Both the position numbers and the translations under genes were made by a program. Under the pieces are notes generated by a model that ran no database searches, was not told the origin of the DNA, and saw only the letters and a program-made list of their open reading frames with translations. Shown piece after piece: positions 1 through 13,430 of a DNA stretch of 16,188 bases (the stretch's first letter is position 1; every line of letters starts with the position of its first letter). The stretch is from Acanthamoeba castellanii str. Neff (taxonomy: Eukaryota > Discosea > Longamoebia > Acanthamoebidae), in assembly GCF_000313135.1 (NCBI RefSeq), contig NW_004457371.1:6244-22431 (forward strand), read 5' to 3'.

Positions 1-1824
1 AGTGTAGGGTGTGGTGTGTCTTGTTTGTTGGTTACAGCAGTCTTTGGGTTTGGATTCCAAGGACAATGAAGACTCAGACAACAAAGACAATGAATTGTTG
101 CTGTCGTCATCACTCTCGCTGTCCAATGCGTGCACAAGGTTCCTCTGCCTGTGCTTGTGTTCTGAGATCCGCTGGCTGCGATCCTTGACCATCTTGCACG
201 TCATGTGGTAGGCGCCGCCGCCCAGGACCAACATGCCGGCCAGCTTGAGGTATGGATTCATCTGGCCGCTGTTGCGCAAATCATTGAAGCGCTCCCAAAT
301 CTTGAGCAGCACAGCGTCATAGTCGCCAATGTTGGTCATCACATTGGACAACCAGTTGTTGAGTTCAGCCTTGATGGGGCTGAGGCTGTTGAGATACTTG
401 ATCACACTGACGCTGAAGATGAGCAACTTGTGTGATGTGTTGAGGCTGCGTGTCACACTGCCCACCTTCTCCATGGAGTTGGCGTACGCGTTCATCTGGT
501 CGACGTCGGATGTGAGATTGAACTTTTGATTGAACCAATGGCCCCTGCGCTCCAGCATGCAGATGCGCACGTGGGCGTTCACGCGCCGCTTGTACTTGGA
601 CATGGTGGTGGCATCGGTGGGCTTGGGCGCGAAGGCACCAGTGACGTTGCCGGCGGCCAGGGCCGCGACGCCAGTCACCAGCGCGGGTATGGGATTCGTG
701 GGTTCTTCCTCCTCTTCTTGTTCCTCAGGCTCTGCTGCCTCCTCTTCCTCTTCCTCCTCCTCCTGTTCTTTGGCTTCAACCTCCTGTCTGGCATCATGGA
801 GCTGATCTGCGAGACTGGGACCGTAGAGCATACCAGCCGTACAAAGCGTAGGATCGACGACGCGCTTCACATGTGGCGCGGGTTCCTCTTCCTCTTCTTC
901 CTCTGGCTGCTCTTCCTCTTCGGCCTCCTCTTCCTCTTCTTCTTCTTCCTCCTCCTCATCATTGCATTGGATCGGCTCACATGCCGATTGTGAGATAGGG
1001 TTGATGCGGGAATCATGGTGTTGCAGAGGGTAGCTCAGCACCGCATCCGGCTTCCTGACCAAGGCGCCGAACGGATTGCCTTTTTGCTCCTCCTCCTGCT
1101 CTTCAGCGGCAGCGGGCGATCCCTGGGACTGTCTGCGCAGGGCCGTCTTGTGATCGTGCACGCGGTCGGGATTGGCGATCTTGTAGAGCTCCATGCTCTT
1201 GCTGAGCGGGTTCTTCTTGATAATCTCATTCAGGTCGCAGTCGTCCGGCAAGGGAGCCGGCGGCACGAACTCGTTGGGCTTGCGCTTGAGCGATGGCGCC
1301 AGAGGAATCGGCTTTGGCGGAGGCGGTGCGGGCTTGCGCTTCGGCGGCGCCGCCGGCTTGGGAGGCGAAGGCGGCGGTGTCGCCACCACCTTGGTCACGG
1401 CTTTTTTCGTCGGCGGCTTGGGTTTCGGCTTGGGGGGCGATGGCGGAGGCGTGGTAGGCTTGCGCCGGCGCGGTGGCGTCGGCTCCTTGCGTGGCGTGGG
1501 AGGAGGCTGCAGGCGATCCGCGAGCCGGTCGCGTAGGGGCTTGGGCGGAGGTGCCGCCGTCGTGATGGTCGCCTGCGGTTCCCCGAGCTGGATCCCCACG
1601 ACCTCTTGCGCATGCGGATCGTTGTCCTGGTCCTCCTCGTTGAAAACCAGCACCCCTTCGTCGTGTTCGAACGATTCGGCCGCGGCGAGCTGGGCCACGA
1701 CGCCGTCATCGCGCGCCAGCTCGGGCTCCACGTGCACGTCATCGTTCCAATTCAGTGATGCGTTGTTGTTGATAAACTGATCAAACGCCGGATGCTGCGA
1801 CATGATGTCATCGGCTTTGGACAT
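1..1824 (-). CDS. NCLDV-type structural protein candidate (DUF5767-like C-terminal region), 3' end beyond window
   Basis: One uninterrupted minus-strand frame runs from the ATG at 1824 to the window edge (608 codons, no stop), so the gene is partial. Visible order: acidic N-terminus; Pro/Lys/Arg-rich tract (about residues 95-200); two poly-Glu tracts (about 290-320 and 354-371); a short hydrophobic Ala/Gly/Val stretch (about 374-395); a well-folded-looking region from residue 408 with GDYDAVLLKIWERF near 500 and LAGMLVLGGGAYHMT near 526-540; and a Ser/Asp-rich tail after 570. The late Gly-rich hydrophobic segment ending in a His-Met pair is what I remember from the DUF5767 family of giant-virus virion proteins. 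That link is from memory of the pattern and is moderate. The long intronless frame, the viral neighbours and the low-complexity linkers fit a virus-derived gene. It lies directly downstream of the OTU gene. If the family call is wrong, it is an unrecognised proline/glutamate-rich protein. Confidence 0.6.
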   Translation of the reverse strand, partial: MSKADDIMSQHPAFDQFINNNASLNWNDDVHVEPELARDDGVVAQLAAAESFEHDEGVLVFNEEDQDNDPHAQEVVGIQLGEPQATITTAAPPPKPLRDRLADRLQPPPTPRKEPTPPRRRKPTTPPPSPPKPKPKPPTKKAVTKVVATPPPSPPKPAAPPKRKPAPPPPKPIPLAPSLKRKPNEFVPPAPLPDDCDLNEIIKKNPLSKSMELYKIANPDRVHDHKTALRRQSQGSPAAAEEQEEEQKGNPFGALVRKPDAVLSYPLQHHDSRINPISQSACEPIQCNDEEEEEEEEEEEAEEEEQPEEEEEEEPAPHVKRVVDPTLCTAGMLYGPSLADQLHDARQEVEAKEQEEEEEEEEAAEPEEQEEEEEPTNPIPALVTGVAALAAGNVTGAFAPKPTDATTMSKYKRRVNAHVRICMLERRGHWFNQKFNLTSDVDQMNAYANSMEKVGSVTRSLNTSHKLLIFSVSVIKYLNSLSPIKAELNNWLSNVMTNIGDYDAVLLKIWERFNDLRNSGQMNPYLKLAGMLVLGGGAYHMTCKMVKDRSQRISEHKHRQRNLVHALDSESDDDSNNSLSLLSESSLSLESKPKDCCNQQTRHTTPYT

Positions 1825-1909
1825 TGCGAGGAAAAGATTGGATGGACGTGCGGGCCTCCGATCACCGATGCAGTCGTGGGTCGTGGATCGGTTTATTGCG
1901 ACGCGTGTG

Positions 1910-2465
1910 TTAGGTGGGACGTGACAAAACCGCCACGCACCCGGCCGCGCGCAGCACGCGGGCGCGCAACGGCTCGGCTGTGCGTGCCGCGAGTGCGCGC
2001 GCCTCCAGGGCAGCTCGCTCAACTGGAAGCTGCCGCGGCCGATGTACGTGATGGGCCGAAAGTGAGAGCCCTCGTCGTACGCCAGCATGACATAGGTGCA
2101 CGCTGCGTCGTCGCCATCGTCATCATCGCCGAATGCTGTGGTGAGGATGCGGGGCAACCCGTCGGTGAAACGCGGATCCTCGTTGGTGGTGCTCACCAAC
2201 AGACACTTGATGTCGAGGATGCGTTCCAAGCGCTCGATGTCGTCGCCGTCGCCCCAATTGTTGGGCTGCGGTGGCAACGCGGCCGTTGTGTCAACGCCGA
2301 GCGCGACATGCGGCGCAGGCGCTCGGTCAAGCCCAGCGCGCCCGTGAGCGAATAAGAGAGCGAGTGAAAGAGGCAGTCGCCATCGCCGGGCACCTCGACC
2401 ACGGCGAAATTGTGGGGGTCGCCGTTGGCCGCGAAGAACGCGGGAGCATTTTGGTTTCCTGACAT
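1910..2465 (-). CDS. OTU-family cysteine protease (deubiquitinase-like), frame broken
   Basis: OTU proteases cleave ubiquitin chains, and giant viruses often carry them. The ATG at 2465 opens a frame with VPGDGDCLFHSLSYSLTG at about residues 25-42. This is the classic OTU catalytic Asp-x-x-Cys motif with the following helix. Near 2300-2320 the coding signal moves to a second frame that carries NNWGDGDDIERLERILDIK and, further on, YDEGSHFRPITYIG. The latter holds the expected catalytic His near the C-terminus. A third frame (about 2020-1910), rich in Ala/Arg/Leu and ending in a stop at 1910, may be the true tail, which would imply a second break. I found no GT-AG pair of sensible size joining the frames, so these are one-base indels, from decay or assembly error. 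A TATTTAA box about 25 nt upstream sits in an AT-rich spacer. All three catalytic elements are visible, so the family call is firm. Activity is doubtful. Confidence 0.75.
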
Positions 2466-2613: not shown

Positions 2614-5441
2614 TTAGGTGGAAGACTTCTTGCGGGCAGCTGGACGAGGGAGAGGTAGGCGAAGGAGACGCAGGAGGAAGAGAGCGATGAGGCACACGGG
2701 CCGATCCACAGGTGGTAGCGGTCGAAGTCGAGCCGTCGGATGATCTCCGAGCCCTCGGTATAGGGGCACACGCCGTTCACGAAGCTCGCTCTCGCGGCAG
2801 TGGTAGTCGACCCCGTCGAACTCGTTGATCGCCAGCGGCATGAAGGCGTAGAAGAAGGGCGAGATGTAGAGCAGCCAGTAGAAGTACTTGGGGATGTCGC
2901 TCACCACCAGGAACAGGCCGCCCACCAGCATGTGCGGGATCACCGTAACCGGAAACAGCGCCAGCGCGGCTCTGAGTGTGCGGATATTTAGATATAAAGG
3001 TCAGCCAATCGGGTGAGACGATATGTATGTATGTATGTATGCGGGGCACGTACGGAAGGTCGGTGCTCACGCTCACGAGGAGGCCAAGCGATTGCGCGAT
3101 GTTGGCCACGATGATGGTGATGCCCAGGCAGATGAAGTAGGCGTCGGCTTCGTCCTTGAGCCCGACCATCCAGTAGGTGATCGTGGTGACGATGCAAGGG
3201 TAGATGATCTGGAAAGGAAGGTCGGCGGAGGACTTGGCCAGGTAGTAGGCCGTCACGCCGTACATTCCATTCGCATACTCCCGCAGGAATGTCGGTCGCT
3301 CGGTCGGAACTATATAACAACACGTAAATGTAGAGATGGTCAACGTTACATATCACCCAAAGCCGTATGTCAACACGAATCCGACAAGGTGGGTAGGAGG
3401 CACATACAGAGATAGAGGACGGCGTTGCCGGTCATGAACATGGCCTGAGTAATGAGCAAGTAGAGAACGCCCATTCGATTTTGAATGTCTGTCAGGTTCA
3501 CCACAATCCCACGATGAGTATTGATTGGAAAGGGCTGTAGGGGCGGGGGGGGGGCGAGTACCGCTCTGGCTGTGACCCATCCGGAGGAAGAGGAGGCCGG
3601 TGATCAGGGCAATCACCAGGTTGATGACCAGCCGTTGGGTGGTCGTGCCTGGGTCTCGAATGTACTGCTTCCAGGACCGGCTCAGCAGAAGCCAGACCTG
3701 CGTGGGGAAGCGCGGCGCGGCCTTCTTCAACTTGGGCAGCTTCTCGTTCTTGAATTCAACCGTGACTCTGCCATCATCGCCATCGTCTTCCTTGCCGTAG
3801 CTGACGCTGCTCGCGGCGGCCGACCGGCGCAGGGTCATCGTGTGCCCGTCGATCGGGAGGATGTTGTTGTGCTCCTGGTGGTAGCCATCGAGGCGCATGA
3901 TCCGCGCCACGTACTTCTCCTCGGGGAGGTCCTCTGAGCGCGAAATCAGCCGCATGTAGAAATCGGAGGGGTTGGTGAACTGGGGACAAGGGTATCCCTG
4001 TTGTTGTTGTTGTACATTACATTACAACATGTTGTGACCCCCTTTGTTGGTTAGATAAGAATATATAAATAAATAAATATAGCCAATGGGGAGGGGGGAT
4101 TGAACCTGCTTGGCAAAGTAGGAGGTGAGCTGGGGCACGGGTCCGCTGTAGACCAGCGAACCGTTGGCCAGCCAGAAGACGTCGTCAAACAGGCTGAAGA
4201 TCTCCGATGACGGCTGGTGAATCGTGCAGACGACCTAGACCAATGGCATGAGCAATCACATGCAAAGCACGACGCACACGACATACGACACACACACACA
4301 CGCACACACACACACACACAGGCCAAGGGAGAGGGCGAGCATGTACGGTGCGGCCCTGGCGCGCGAGGTTTCGAAGGATGGTGACCACCTGCTCGGCCAT
4401 GGTGCTGTCGAGGCCCGACGTGGGCTCGTCGAGGAAGAGCAGCCGAGGGTTGACCAGCAGCTCGAGCCCGATGGACACCCGCCGGCGCTCGCCTCCCGAT
4501 ATGCCGCGGGTCACGCCCGGTACGCCCACCCGCGTGTCACAGCACTTGATCAGGTTGAGCTGCCGCATGACCTTCTCCACGCGCGCCAGCTTGGCCTCCT
4601 TGGTCATGGTCCGCGGCAGCCGCAGCAGAGCCGAGTACGTAAGCAGCTCCCTGTGATGGTGATGATGATGATGATGATGACGAGCCAACCCCACAACACA
4701 GTCACATCATGAGCCGTGTGTCACATAAGAGGAGTTGAACAGTCGCTGTTATACCTGGGGGTGAGGTTACCGAGGAGTGTGTCCTCCTGCATGACGTAGG
4801 CGCTCACCTGCTTGAACTTGTTGCGGCTCAGTTTGTGTCCGTTGACGAGAATGTCGCCTTCGTGGCGGCCGTCCCTGGTGCGCCCGCTCAGCAGGTTGAG
4901 GAACGACGTCTTGCCCGCGCCTGCGTGCGGGCGTGTGTGCGCACACAACCAACAATCACACACACCACACATACATTCAGTGGTTGGCCCGCCACGATCC
5001 AAAACGTCCCCACAGCGGGCGCACCGGAGGGTCCCATGATGGCGACGAGTCGGCCGGGCAGGAAGTGGCCGGACATGGGCTGCAGGATGTGCTTGATCTC
5101 GTGGGTCCACAGCTTCTTCTCGCGCCTCGGCACAGCTTGGCGGGCAGGCCACGGAGCCCGTCGGCGAGCGGACCCTTCGAGATCTTGACCGAGAAGCTGA
5201 TGTTGTGGAACGACATACAGACGGGCGGCACCCGGAGGTCCTCCTCGTCGTCAAGATTATCGTGATCGGCGTCTGCGCTGTGGCCAGACTCAAGGTCCAG
5301 CTCGTCCCCGCGGTGCTGGCTGTCATCATCTTCTCTTTCCCTGTCGTCTTCTCTCTCTCCTTCGCTCTTGGAGCTCGTCATCGGTTCGAGCTCGATGTCT
5401 CGCCCGCCCGCGATGTAGTGCTCGTCTTCGCCGCCTTGCAT
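2614..5441 (-). CDS. ABCG-family (White/BCRP-type) ABC half-transporter, 8 exons
   Basis: A membrane ATP-driven exporter with the ABCG layout: nucleotide-binding domain first, then a six-helix ABC2 membrane domain. Exons inferred from splice sites and protein continuity: 5441-5025, 4920-4755, 4650-4347, 4234-4106, 3979-3562, 3488-3408, 3309-3054, 2971-2614 (about 700 residues, normal for the family). Motifs: Walker A GPSGAGKTS split by intron 1; Q-loop in VMQEDTLLGNLTP; signature ISGGERRR; Walker B and D-loop LLFLDEPTSGLDS; H-loop CTIHQPSSEIF. Then comes an acidic/basic linker and membrane segments in exons 5-8, including RPTFLREYANGMYGVTAYYL. The N-terminal about 80 residues are acidic and disordered. 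Frame breaks without any intron occur near 5135 (before RREKKLWTHEIKH) and around 2785 and 2710 in the last exon. Introns are 104, 104, 112, 126, 73, 98 and 82 nt. This is a typical host gene. The substrate cannot be predicted. Confidence 0.93.
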
Positions 5442-10643: not shown

Positions 10644-10947
10644 GGACCACAAGCCAGAGGTAACCAAGGCAGACAGATCACGAAAGCCTTTAGGGGATGT
10701 TGTACTTGTGTGCTGCAAACATGAGCATGCAGTTCCTTGGGCACTTCCAAACAACTTGACCTCAGTTGATTGGTTCGGTGTCTCTCGAGAAGGTCTGCCA
10801 CCCCTTTTGCCAATGGAGGTCGATGTTTGATTTGAGAACTGGGGTCTGTTTATTGCCGATTTTGAGTCGCGCAAAAGGCCTCTTCCGTGCGCGTTGCCGC
10901 TCTCTGAACAGTACTGCTTTCTATCCAACAACCTTGGCGCTCTCCGC
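10644..10947. other. Convergent 3' intergenic region, no gene seen
   Basis: These 304 bp separate the stop codons of the convergent secreted-protein and MCP genes. No open frame here has family motifs or a convincing start. It presumably holds both 3' untranslated regions. Confidence 0.5.
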
Positions 10948-12190
10948 TTAGTTGGCATACTGTGTAGGAAAAAAAGAGAGAACAAGGTGAGTATACGACA
11001 TTGGATTGCAGCGGATAGTTGGGGAGACATACCAGCTTGCCTGCACGAGCACGGTAGGGAAAAGAAGGAAGAATGTCAGTAATTGAAATAAGCACAACAC
11101 CAAGAGGAGAGGCGCCGTACCCATCATGCCACTCACAACGCGATGGACATTGTGGTTGGGCGCGTAGACGCGGATCTGGCCGTTGAACGGGGTGGCGTGG
11201 GCGGCCGACTTGGCGTTGTAGGCGTTGGGGAAGATGAGGCGGAGGGTGACGTTGTCGATCCTCGAGAAGTTGCACGAGCCCGAGGGCGCCGGGGCCGGTG
11301 TAGGGCGTGGGCGTGATGGCCGAGTCGCGCTGGACGACCCAGAGGAGCTCCTTGACGGGGTGGTTGAAGTTGAGGCGCACGTGCTGCGAGCTCACGCCGG
11401 CGGTGTGCGACTCGGAGCTCGAGTGCTGCACCTCGTCGACGAGGTACTCGTGCATCTGCTGGGCGAACATGCGCCTCTCCATGGCGTCGAGGAACACGTA
11501 GTTGAGCAGCAGGGTCATCTCGCACATGTCGCCGGGCTGGGCGAGCGTGGCGGGGTTGTTGGCCTCGCCGGAGCGCACGATGAGCTCCTCGGCGCGGCGC
11601 GTGCGCACGTTGATCTTGACGTCGTGATACTGGAGCGCGATGAGCGGCAGGGCGTGCTCGGTGTGCCTGTTCCAGTCAAACTGCAGGGGCACGTAGATGT
11701 GCTGGGTGCGCTTACCGTAGTCAATGAGCTGCTCGCGGGTGTCGGCCTGACCGACCTGGTCGCCGAGCTTCTTCTCCTGCGTGGAGCTCACCTGCTCGAG
11801 CATCTCGAGGTACTCGCCCGAGTGCTCGTCGAACGGGTGGCCACCCACCTCGTAGTTGACGCAGTCGATGGCGGCGTGACCTACATAGTTGGTGTAGTAA
11901 GCCACGTTGTTGGCGAAGCCATCACTCACCATTGACGGGTGGTACTCGATGGGCTTGAGCTGGAAATAGAAGTACGCGCGCGACACCAGGTCACCAGAGC
12001 GGTTGACCAGCGCGGTCATCTTGCGGCCGCAGCCGGTGGCGCCGTTGAAGCCGTTGTCGATTTCGGCGACGGCAAAGTGCGAGTGGCGCCTCACAGATCC
12101 CTTCCAGAAGGTGATCTGCGGGTCAATGGTGAGATACTTGTTCTGAGGGCCTTGGGCCGACAGCTGGGTTAGGGCACCGGAGACCGGCAT
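10948..12190 (-). CDS. MCP: Giant-virus-type major capsid protein (double jelly-roll), internally deleted and intron-bearing
   Basis: The major capsid protein builds the icosahedral shell of NCLDVs. From ATG 12190 the frame has the family hallmarks: DPQITFWKGSVRRHSHFA (about residues 23-40), FNGATGCGRK, a GDL segment, NYVGHAAIDCVNYEVGGH, YVPLQFDWNRHTEHALPLIALQYHDV, and FNHPVKELLWVVQ (275-287). Coding signal then jumps one frame near 11287 to PSGSCNFSRIDNVTLRL, then IRVYAPNHNVHRVVSGMMG. In related MCPs roughly 60-70 residues lie between these two blocks (the strand with the QPYQHHT-like motif), and they are missing here. The last codons are split by introns at 11120-11041 and 11032-10960 around an 8-nt exon, giving a C-terminus ending Tyr-Ala-Asn-stop, as in other MCPs. 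Total about 360 residues against the usual 430-500. This is an endogenous copy, probably non-functional as a capsid. Confidence 0.93.
10960..11032 (-). other. Intron 2 of the MCP gene
   Basis: 73 nt, with donor GTATGT, a long pyrimidine tract and acceptor CCTACACAG. It is followed by the last four codons including the stop (10959-10948). The strength of both sites matches host introns in the ABCG gene. Confidence 0.7.
11041..11120 (-). other. Intron 1 of the MCP gene
   Basis: 80 nt, with donor GTACGG, a branch-like TTACTGAC, a pyrimidine tract (TTCTTCCTTCTTTTCCC) and acceptor GTGCAG. An 8-nt microexon, GCAAGCTG (11040-11033), follows before intron 2. Confidence 0.65.
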
Positions 12191-12429: not shown

Positions 12430-13430
12430 ATGAGCGAGAGCAGCACGCCGACGACGACCAACGCCCTGGTGGAGCAGCAGGGAGAGCGCCGCTCCAAGCG
12501 CCGCCACCGTGCCACGGTCAAGCGCGCCGTCGGGTCCAACGAGTCGCCGGCCATCTGGGCCGCGCGCCACCAGGACGGCCGGGCCTTCGACGGCGACCGG
12601 GTCGAGTTCGGGTTCAACCTCTTTCACAGCGAGGCCGACGCCACCAGGCTGACGGCCACCCGCGCCGCCACGGCCGTGCGCTCGTTCGCCACCCTGCCCA
12701 ACGCCATCGCTTGGGCCAAGAACCGCAAGTCCATCGTCGACAAGACCGAAGCCGCCATCGTGGGCGACACGTGGGTCAGCCCGGCGTTCCCCGACATCGA
12801 CGGCGAGGATGACACGGACGTCTTCCTCACCATCGAGGTGCAGGCCGCCCGCTCGCACGGCCAGTCGGGCAACGAGATCGTGGGCTACGACGCGTGGTTC
12901 GACGGCAAGCGCGAGCTCTCCAACATGTCGGCGCTGCCCAATGCCAACGTGAGCCGGGCCGTCATCGAGGGGTGCATGAAGGCCATTGAACACGCGAGGA
13001 ACCCGGAGACGGGTTCAGCGATGCCACCGCCATCCTGCTGAGCTCTCCCAGCGTCATCCCCTACCTCGCTCTGTCGGACGCTCGCAAGGGCATGCCGGCG
13101 TCGTGCAAGAACCTGGCCAAGTCGTTCCGTCGCACGTGCCAGGGACTGCCCCACTGCCGGGACAGTAGACGGGAAAGTGATGATTTTGCGCGCCTTGACG
13201 CTCAATTCCGCCCTTTTCCCACCTTTTCGGGTGACCCCGAGCTGGACCAGCTCACCTTGATGGACAAAAGATGGAACGTTCCATCTTCAAGTCCGCCTTG
13301 GGGGCACCTTGGTGGACGGAAGACGAAATGTTCCATCTTCATGTCCACCTTGAGTGCACCTCGAGGTGGACACGACGCAGATCCGCTCTGCAAGGTGGTT
13401 GACCACCTCAAGTCTGTTGGAAAGGTGTAG
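12430..13430 (+). CDS. Hypothetical protein divergent from MCP, one frame break
   Basis: Not recognised. From ATG 12430 (MSESSTPTTTNALVEQQGER) comes a basic patch RRSKRRHRATVKRAVG, then a well-structured-looking region: FDGDRVEFGFNLFHSEAD, TRAATAVRSFATLPNAIAWA, DIDGEDDTDVFLTIEVQAAR, and a helical segment through IEGCMKAIEHARNPE. Near 13010 the coding signal shifts to another frame, which continues FSDATAILLSSPSVIPYLAL, then SCKNLAKSFRRTCQGLPHC (to about 13168). The original frame stops at 13041. The second frame stays open to 13430 but runs through the 52-bp tandem repeat, so the true end is probably near 13170. About 245 residues of plausible protein. It shares an intergenic region with the MCP gene and has no introns, so a viral origin is likely by context. 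Function unknown. Confidence 0.6.
13268..13408. repeat. Two-copy 52-bp tandem repeat with nested palindromes
   Basis: The unit starting GTTCCATCTTCA at 13278 recurs at 13330, and the two copies align with about a dozen differences. Nested in or beside them are the perfect 20-nt palindrome AAGATGGAACGTTCCATCTT (13268-13287), CACCTCGAGGTG (13357-13368), and AGGTGGT/ACCACCT arms with a 2-nt loop (13393-13408). It lies at the 3' end of the 12430 gene. Confidence 0.7.

Follow-up and report, generated by a model that had tools for sequence, protein, structure and literature searches.

Putative GT-AG introns interrupting the final codons of a broken, probably medusavirus-like capsid gene in the genome of Acanthamoeba castellanii Neff

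The DNA analysed here, the window, is a stretch of 16,188 nt (G000:C169:6244-22431) from the 38.4-Mb, 250-contig assembly of Acanthamoeba castellanii Neff, a strain now named A. terricola Neff (PMC11702301; papers cited by PMC number are represented here by excerpts). Its minus strand carries a gene for a major capsid protein (MCP) of the type known from nucleocytoplasmic large DNA viruses (NCLDV). The gene consists of two pieces in different frames (Table 1). The 5' piece matches Pfam Capsid_N (PF16903, E=3.4e-33) and the first part of Capsid_NCLDV (PF04451, E=1e-12). The 3' piece covers positions 136-195 of PF04451 (E=4.5e-8), with 33.5 bits that, taken alone, are just below the cut-off of 34.8. 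These matches agree with a preliminary description of this DNA as an endogenous NCLDV-type MCP gene. The gene is not intact and open: compared to a second copy in this genome, the sister copy (G000:C153:162009-163140, designated L002, running off the contig end), 236 internal nt are missing between 11288 and 11287, the missing piece has GCCCT at each end, and the frame is shifted. After the deletion, the upstream frame stays open as a 446-aa open reading frame (ORF) down to 10850. The preliminary description mentioned neither the deletion nor the open read-through nor the fact that the NCBI gene model already has the capsid tail discussed below.

Table 1. Features of the capsid gene in the window, with the proposed introns and exons of its 3' end
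Feature	Position	Strand	Remarks
MCP 5' coding piece	11285..12190	-	302 codons, ATG at 12190; 100% identical to NCBI protein P0001 over the piece
Deletion junction	11283..11288	-	236 nt of sister copy absent; 5 nt microhomology (GCCCT); frameshift
MCP 3' coding piece, other frame	11121..11280	-	GSCNFSRID...VVSGMM plus first base G of next codon
Extra intron implied by P0001 (GALG/LSAAH), probably an artefact	11209..11275	-	boundaries inferred from P0001 residues
Putative intron 1	11041..11120	-	80 nt, GT-AG, phase 2, GTACGG...GTGCAG; position differs from sister copy
Branch-site-like TTACTGAC	11075..11082	-	about 35 nt before 3' splice site
Putative microexon GCAAGCTG	11033..11040	-	8 nt
Putative intron 2	10960..11032	-	73 nt, GT-AG, phase 0, GTATGT...ACACAG
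Last exon TATGCCAACTAA (Tyr-Ala-Asn-stop)	10948..10959	-	12 nt, identical in sister copy; family tail YAN
AATAAA, possible poly(A) signal	10849..10854	-	about 95 nt after stop; motif only

The 3' coding piece ends with GTG AGT GGC ATG ATG G at 11121. It is followed by two intervals that have GT...AG ends and pyrimidine-rich 3' parts. Intron 1 is 70% pyrimidine and contains the branch-like TTACTGAC; ACTGAC also occurs in intron 1 of the sister copy. Excision of 11120-11041 and 11032-10960 joins the microexon GCAAGCTG to the last 12 nt and yields SGMMG-KL-YAN-stop. The family tail SGMxGxxYAN is present in the window gene only after both intervals have been removed. The coordinates of the two intervals, the pyrimidine tracts and a branch-like site had been given in the preliminary description, whose coordinates proved to be exact. 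P0001, the 340-aa NCBI protein of the window gene, ends with SGMMGKLYAN, and the sister copy has the same tail after the same kind of splicing. Judged from the sequence, two GT-AG introns that would be removed by the nuclear spliceosome appear to split the last MCP codons, as had been proposed.

Could such a tail arise by chance? Dinucleotide shuffles of 11120-10880 were inspected under fixed limits: the first donor had to lie within 12 bases, intron length was 40-150 nt, and the middle exon had to measure 3-18 nt; G-x-x-[YF]-[AS]-[NS]-stop was accepted via one or two introns. It was reachable in 10 of 4000 shuffles, or 11 of 4000 when the first GT was kept. The real sequence has exactly one solution, the Tyr-Ala-Asn-stop predicted beforehand. 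A point against splicing is that introns 1 and 2, together 153 nt, contain no in-frame stop and the unspliced frame reaches the same stop, so that the frame alone does not force splicing; the sister introns (L002:1534-1722, minus) lack an in-frame stop, too. Both intervals might then be coding and place a 51-residue insertion before YAN. However, an open read-through of the 161-nt stretch was obtained in 1148 of 4000 shuffles. Read unspliced, the sister copy encodes a different peptide with GMMGKL inside, which misses the YAN stop because sister intron 2 is 74 nt long. In addition, the short tail is the rule among related capsid proteins (see below), and P0001 has it as well. We consider coding intervals very unlikely.

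Relatives were taken from two protein searches, the first of which gave 7281 matches; the best 120 of each comprise 216 distinct proteins. Among the best 120 of the 7281 matches, 94 end with Tyr-small-Asn/Ser according to a strict pattern, including P0001 and the NCBI protein of the sister copy, P0010. The solved chain 3kk5, which we take to be that of PBCV-1, ends with SGMGGLAYAN. An SG anchor is reached by 196 of the 216 listed proteins, and 188 of these 196, among them P0001, have the normal short tail; the 20 proteins without the anchor as written were left out of this count, although several have a normal tail. The ending on which the preliminary description relied is the common one among the MCP C-termini listed.

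The other eight anchored proteins break at the tail, and seven of them are compatible, on protein evidence and by a lenient test, with codons that continue into a GT donor. P0018 was rejected as such a case: its tail is lost, but not in a way readable as a GT donor. P0091, judged by eye, reads as a frameshift. The strongest cases are P0004, P0030 and P0003. P0004 has a 25-residue in-frame insertion at QPSG/SMN with codon-compatible GTAC...GCAG ends and then breaks after SGM. P0002, which is 97% identical to P0004, has neither insertion nor break and might be a transcript. In P0030, a 25-residue in-frame insertion at SGMAG has GTAC...GTAG-compatible ends, and a second possible donor lies within the tail Ala codon. 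P0003, which is outside the eight, runs into a GTAY-compatible donor within CNF/SRID. As proteins broken earlier score lower and may drop out of the best 120 per search, a bias in the position of the breaks is possible. Three metagenomic capsid ORFs, P0014, P0121 and P0122, break at the same Gly and continue with similar residues, as if they had one homologous intron; they are alike and do not count as independent cases. Scans of viral and genome contigs with a few short peptide patterns and a tblastn search of a phage collection revealed no relative of the query.

In the sister copy, the introns are 96 and 74 nt long and the middle exon comprises 19 nt (80, 73 and 8 nt in the window). The bases of the microexon recur in this 19-nt exon except for one synonymous change. 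The site of intron 2 is common to both copies; 59 of 75 columns match, and this score was reached by 0 of 500 shuffles. Conservation is concentrated in two blocks delimited after looking at the alignment, the first 13 nt (13/13) and the branch (CTCAC)/pyrimidine block (23/25), together 36/38, compared to 23/37 in the remainder of the intron. Intron 1 differs between the copies: it is in phase 2 in both, but in the sister it sits 12 nt upstream, and the pair is hardly alignable (score reached by 5 of 500 shuffles). The 3' end of the capsid gene seems to be a site of repeated intron gain or replacement. A mobile intron family (introner) was considered but not supported, as 10948-11160 matched only itself and the sister copy, and sister intron 1 only itself, in a search of the partial 38.4-Mb assembly with very common words skipped. 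A third Neff MCP copy is located at G000:C86:22949-23719 (L004). Its match ends at about codon 257 of the query and is followed by non-MCP sequence; ending before the tail, it is uninformative as intron evidence. A distant MCP match on contig C234 was inspected and not used.

Self-splicing introns of the group I type were also taken into account, since the capsid genes of kaumoebavirus and faustovirus are known to be spliced and contain, in the latter partly, such elements. The introns of both Neff copies are, however, 73-96 nt long, pyrimidine-rich and bounded by GT and AG, and an Rfam search of 10800-11400 yielded no family at E<=1 and hence no group I/II core. The probability of self-splicing is almost negligible.

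The NCBI models of the two copies need caution. P0001 implies an extra intron that bridges the deletion and cuts out the conserved SCNFSRIDNV stretch; this intron is probably an annotation artefact. P0010 ends with NHN/YAN and skips SGMMGKL, though the DNA supports the full tail. As P0001 contains SGMMGKL, the annotations of the two copies are inconsistent. For the Neff annotation, transcripts from RNA-seq, protein matches and the output of a trained gene finder were combined in one pipeline and edited by hand; exact transcript coverage is given for 32,836 of 113,574 exons (PMC4053784). Because the pipeline mixed its evidence and only some exons are transcript-covered, reads may or may not underlie the P0001 tail. 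Since the NCBI model places a doubtful extra intron beside the deletion and the sister copy lies at a contig end and has several one-base gaps, an assembly or gene-model artefact has to be weighed. Furthermore, in a long-read study of Neff only 1 of its 16 MCPs (Mollivirus-like) had been previously identified, and the window copy may be outside its seven MCP genes in the Neff assembly, four of which looked intact (PMC11702301). Against an artefact speaks the sister copy, which has the same tail structure but another first intron. Moreover, the frameshifts in the long-read MCP genes were present before short-read correction, although it is uncertain if the window copy is included there (PMC11702301). 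An artefact is highly improbable. The two NCBI proteins share the end of the tail, and the sequence tests together with the sister copy support the two GT-AG introns and the 8-nt microexon of the preliminary description as a prediction from sequence.

When were the introns acquired? The 49 codons shared by both copies before the introns contain 10 differences, 9 of them synonymous and 1 not; the Ser codon split by the sister's intron (AGT vs TC/G) was excluded from this count. At random, a synonymous fraction of 0.262 is expected, which gives P=4.4e-5 for 9 of 10. The synonymous difference, calculated by hand from the counts, is about 0.24 per site and thereby close to the divergence of intron 2 (13 mismatches among 72 aligned bases). 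Since intron 2 is shared by both copies and 9 of the 10 differing codons are synonymous since their split, intron 2 should predate the end of selection. This means, it would already have been present while the capsid protein was under selection, and the intron drifted whereas the protein was kept. Most likely, this selection took place in a virus, because silent, decaying host copies would not show such a codon pattern, whereas capsid genes of a replicating virus would.

Medusavirus and the Mamonoviridae have an NCLDV-type MCP like that of the window gene, and in published trees the medusavirus MCP and those endogenous to Acanthamoeba form one group (PMC6450098, PMC12210455). No entry in the protein listings inspected here was named as a medusavirus sequence. 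In medusavirus, seven genes contain putative spliceosomal introns; the virus has no RNA polymerase, and its DNA is replicated in the host nucleus (PMC6450098). We propose that the window contains an endogenous, now broken, medusavirus-like MCP gene that is interrupted in its last codons by two ordinary GT-AG introns, and that spliceosomal removal of both would provide the conserved tail SGMMGKLYAN. The virus in which the introns were acquired would be one with late transcripts that travel via the amoeba nucleus; only afterwards would the gene have been integrated, shortened by 236 nt and silenced. That the introns arrived with the virus, having been gained when the capsid gene was still functional, is in our opinion fairly probable, and more so than a later colonisation in the host.

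Alternatively, genuine introns may have entered the gene only once it was integrated in the amoeba, by the ordinary colonisation of transferred genes, with duplication of the copies in the host afterwards. Introns of endogenous nucleocytoviruses are usually interpreted in this way (PMC12768974), and the intron sizes and GT-AG signals found here are ordinary for a nucleus. However, intron 2 is older than the split between the copies, and with 9 of 10 differing codons synonymous since then, selection on the capsid protein would have been needed in the host, where viral regions are reported to be silent or transcriptionally suppressed and heterochromatic in Neff (PMC12210455). In addition, recent intron gain in transferred genes of A. 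castellanii is called very rare (PMC4053784). Gain in the host is unlikely, though it retains some weight. For the shared intron 2 and the codon pattern, a prolonged stay in the host nucleus with transcription there, which the preliminary description had offered first, is not the best reading. Its second option, an undescribed virus with spliced capsid genes, fits better as far as the virus is concerned, but spliced capsid genes have already been described in mimivirus, faustovirus, kaumoebavirus and mirusviruses.

Several observations weigh against introns that came with the virus. The selection argument is based on 49 codons and 10 changes. Over 480 columns of the 5' part (11787-11308 vs L002), only 3 substitutions and 2 gaps are found, counted without the last 19 bases toward the contig end, where one further substitution and one further gap occur. 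This is less than in the 147 columns before the introns with their 10 substitutions (Fisher P=6e-5) and suggests that recombination or gene conversion may have evened out the 5' part and mixed the histories of the copies. The same codon signal would be expected if a capsid protein domesticated by the host had been under selection there. Introns in endogenous nucleocytoviruses have been discussed as a sign of decay (PMC12768974). Finally, the putative introns of P0003, P0004 and P0030 rest on protein sequence, and viral and amoebal contigs are alike conceivable as their source.

Capsid genes with introns are known from several viruses. Mimivirus L425 is an intron-bearing capsid gene of an Acanthamoeba virus, as here, but with 3430 bp for 593 aa it contains about 1.6 kb of noncoding DNA, unlike the short introns of the window gene (PMC2688009). 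The MCP gene of faustovirus E12 is spliced from 13 exons, and seven of its introns have been called spliceosome-like; it differs by five group I introns and by splice sites that are all non-canonical, whereas the window gene has canonical GT-AG ends (PMC6247863). In kaumoebavirus, the MCP introns are mostly non-orthologous between two strains, and insertion hot spots have been suggested; these are, in contrast to ours, type I introns, some of which carry endonuclease genes (PMC7909422). Mirusvirus MCP genes have short GT-AG introns with a length peak at about 80 bp, positions that vary among close genes and, in one order, a CTGAC branch motif, but they encode an HK97-type capsid protein of another virus phylum (PMC12768974). 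Nucleocytoviruses are said to be generally devoid of spliceosomal introns except for decaying insertions, pandoraviruses and a few chloroviruses (PMC12768974). In the excerpts searched, introns in a medusavirus-like MCP are not reported; supplementary tables such as Table S1 of PMC6450098 were outside this search. A literature search on microexons and introns in protists including Acanthamoeba gave no match. Spliced capsid genes are thus already known; canonical GT-AG introns predicted to interrupt the final codons of a medusavirus-like MCP gene, one of them displaced between copies, would be new as far as the literature was searched.

The remainder of the window looks like a mixture of viral and host sequences: a DUF5767 protein, an OTU-type piece, an ABC transporter and the MCP gene. 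The DUF5767 protein (E=1e-25) is encoded at 1-2465 (minus). Directly upstream, in another frame, lies the start of an OTU-type protease (E=0.008, below the cut-off); the region may represent another viral gene that is either broken or spliced. Between these pieces and the MCP gene, several ORF pieces at 2614-5329 (minus) encode an ABC transporter (ABC_tran, ABC2_membrane) and are probably parts of an intron-rich host gene. A 203-aa ORF (NCBI ACA1_337630) at 12430-13041 (plus) is located head to head with the MCP gene; it has no Pfam domain at E<=0.1 and only one other, weak protein match (P0218).

With regard to the virus family, a wider proposal can be made tentatively, and we hold it with less than even confidence. 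Medusavirus-like viruses would have spliceosomal introns in the last capsid codons, a hot spot of intron gain and replacement, as close copies differ and several relatives break there. They would need the amoeba spliceosome to finish their main structural protein, and the endogenous introns would be inherited from the virus instead of being a mark of decay. Introns in endogenous giant viruses are commonly taken as a sign of decay or assimilation (PMC12768974), whereas intron 2 appears to have coexisted with selection on the capsid. Furthermore, the position of intron 1 differs between the two copies, which are almost identical in part of the gene. If these introns were virus-borne, splicing of a structural gene in the nucleus would be a trait of medusavirus-like viruses that can be tested, and the last MCP codons would be a small natural laboratory of intron gain, in an amoeba for which recent gain is reported to be very rare.
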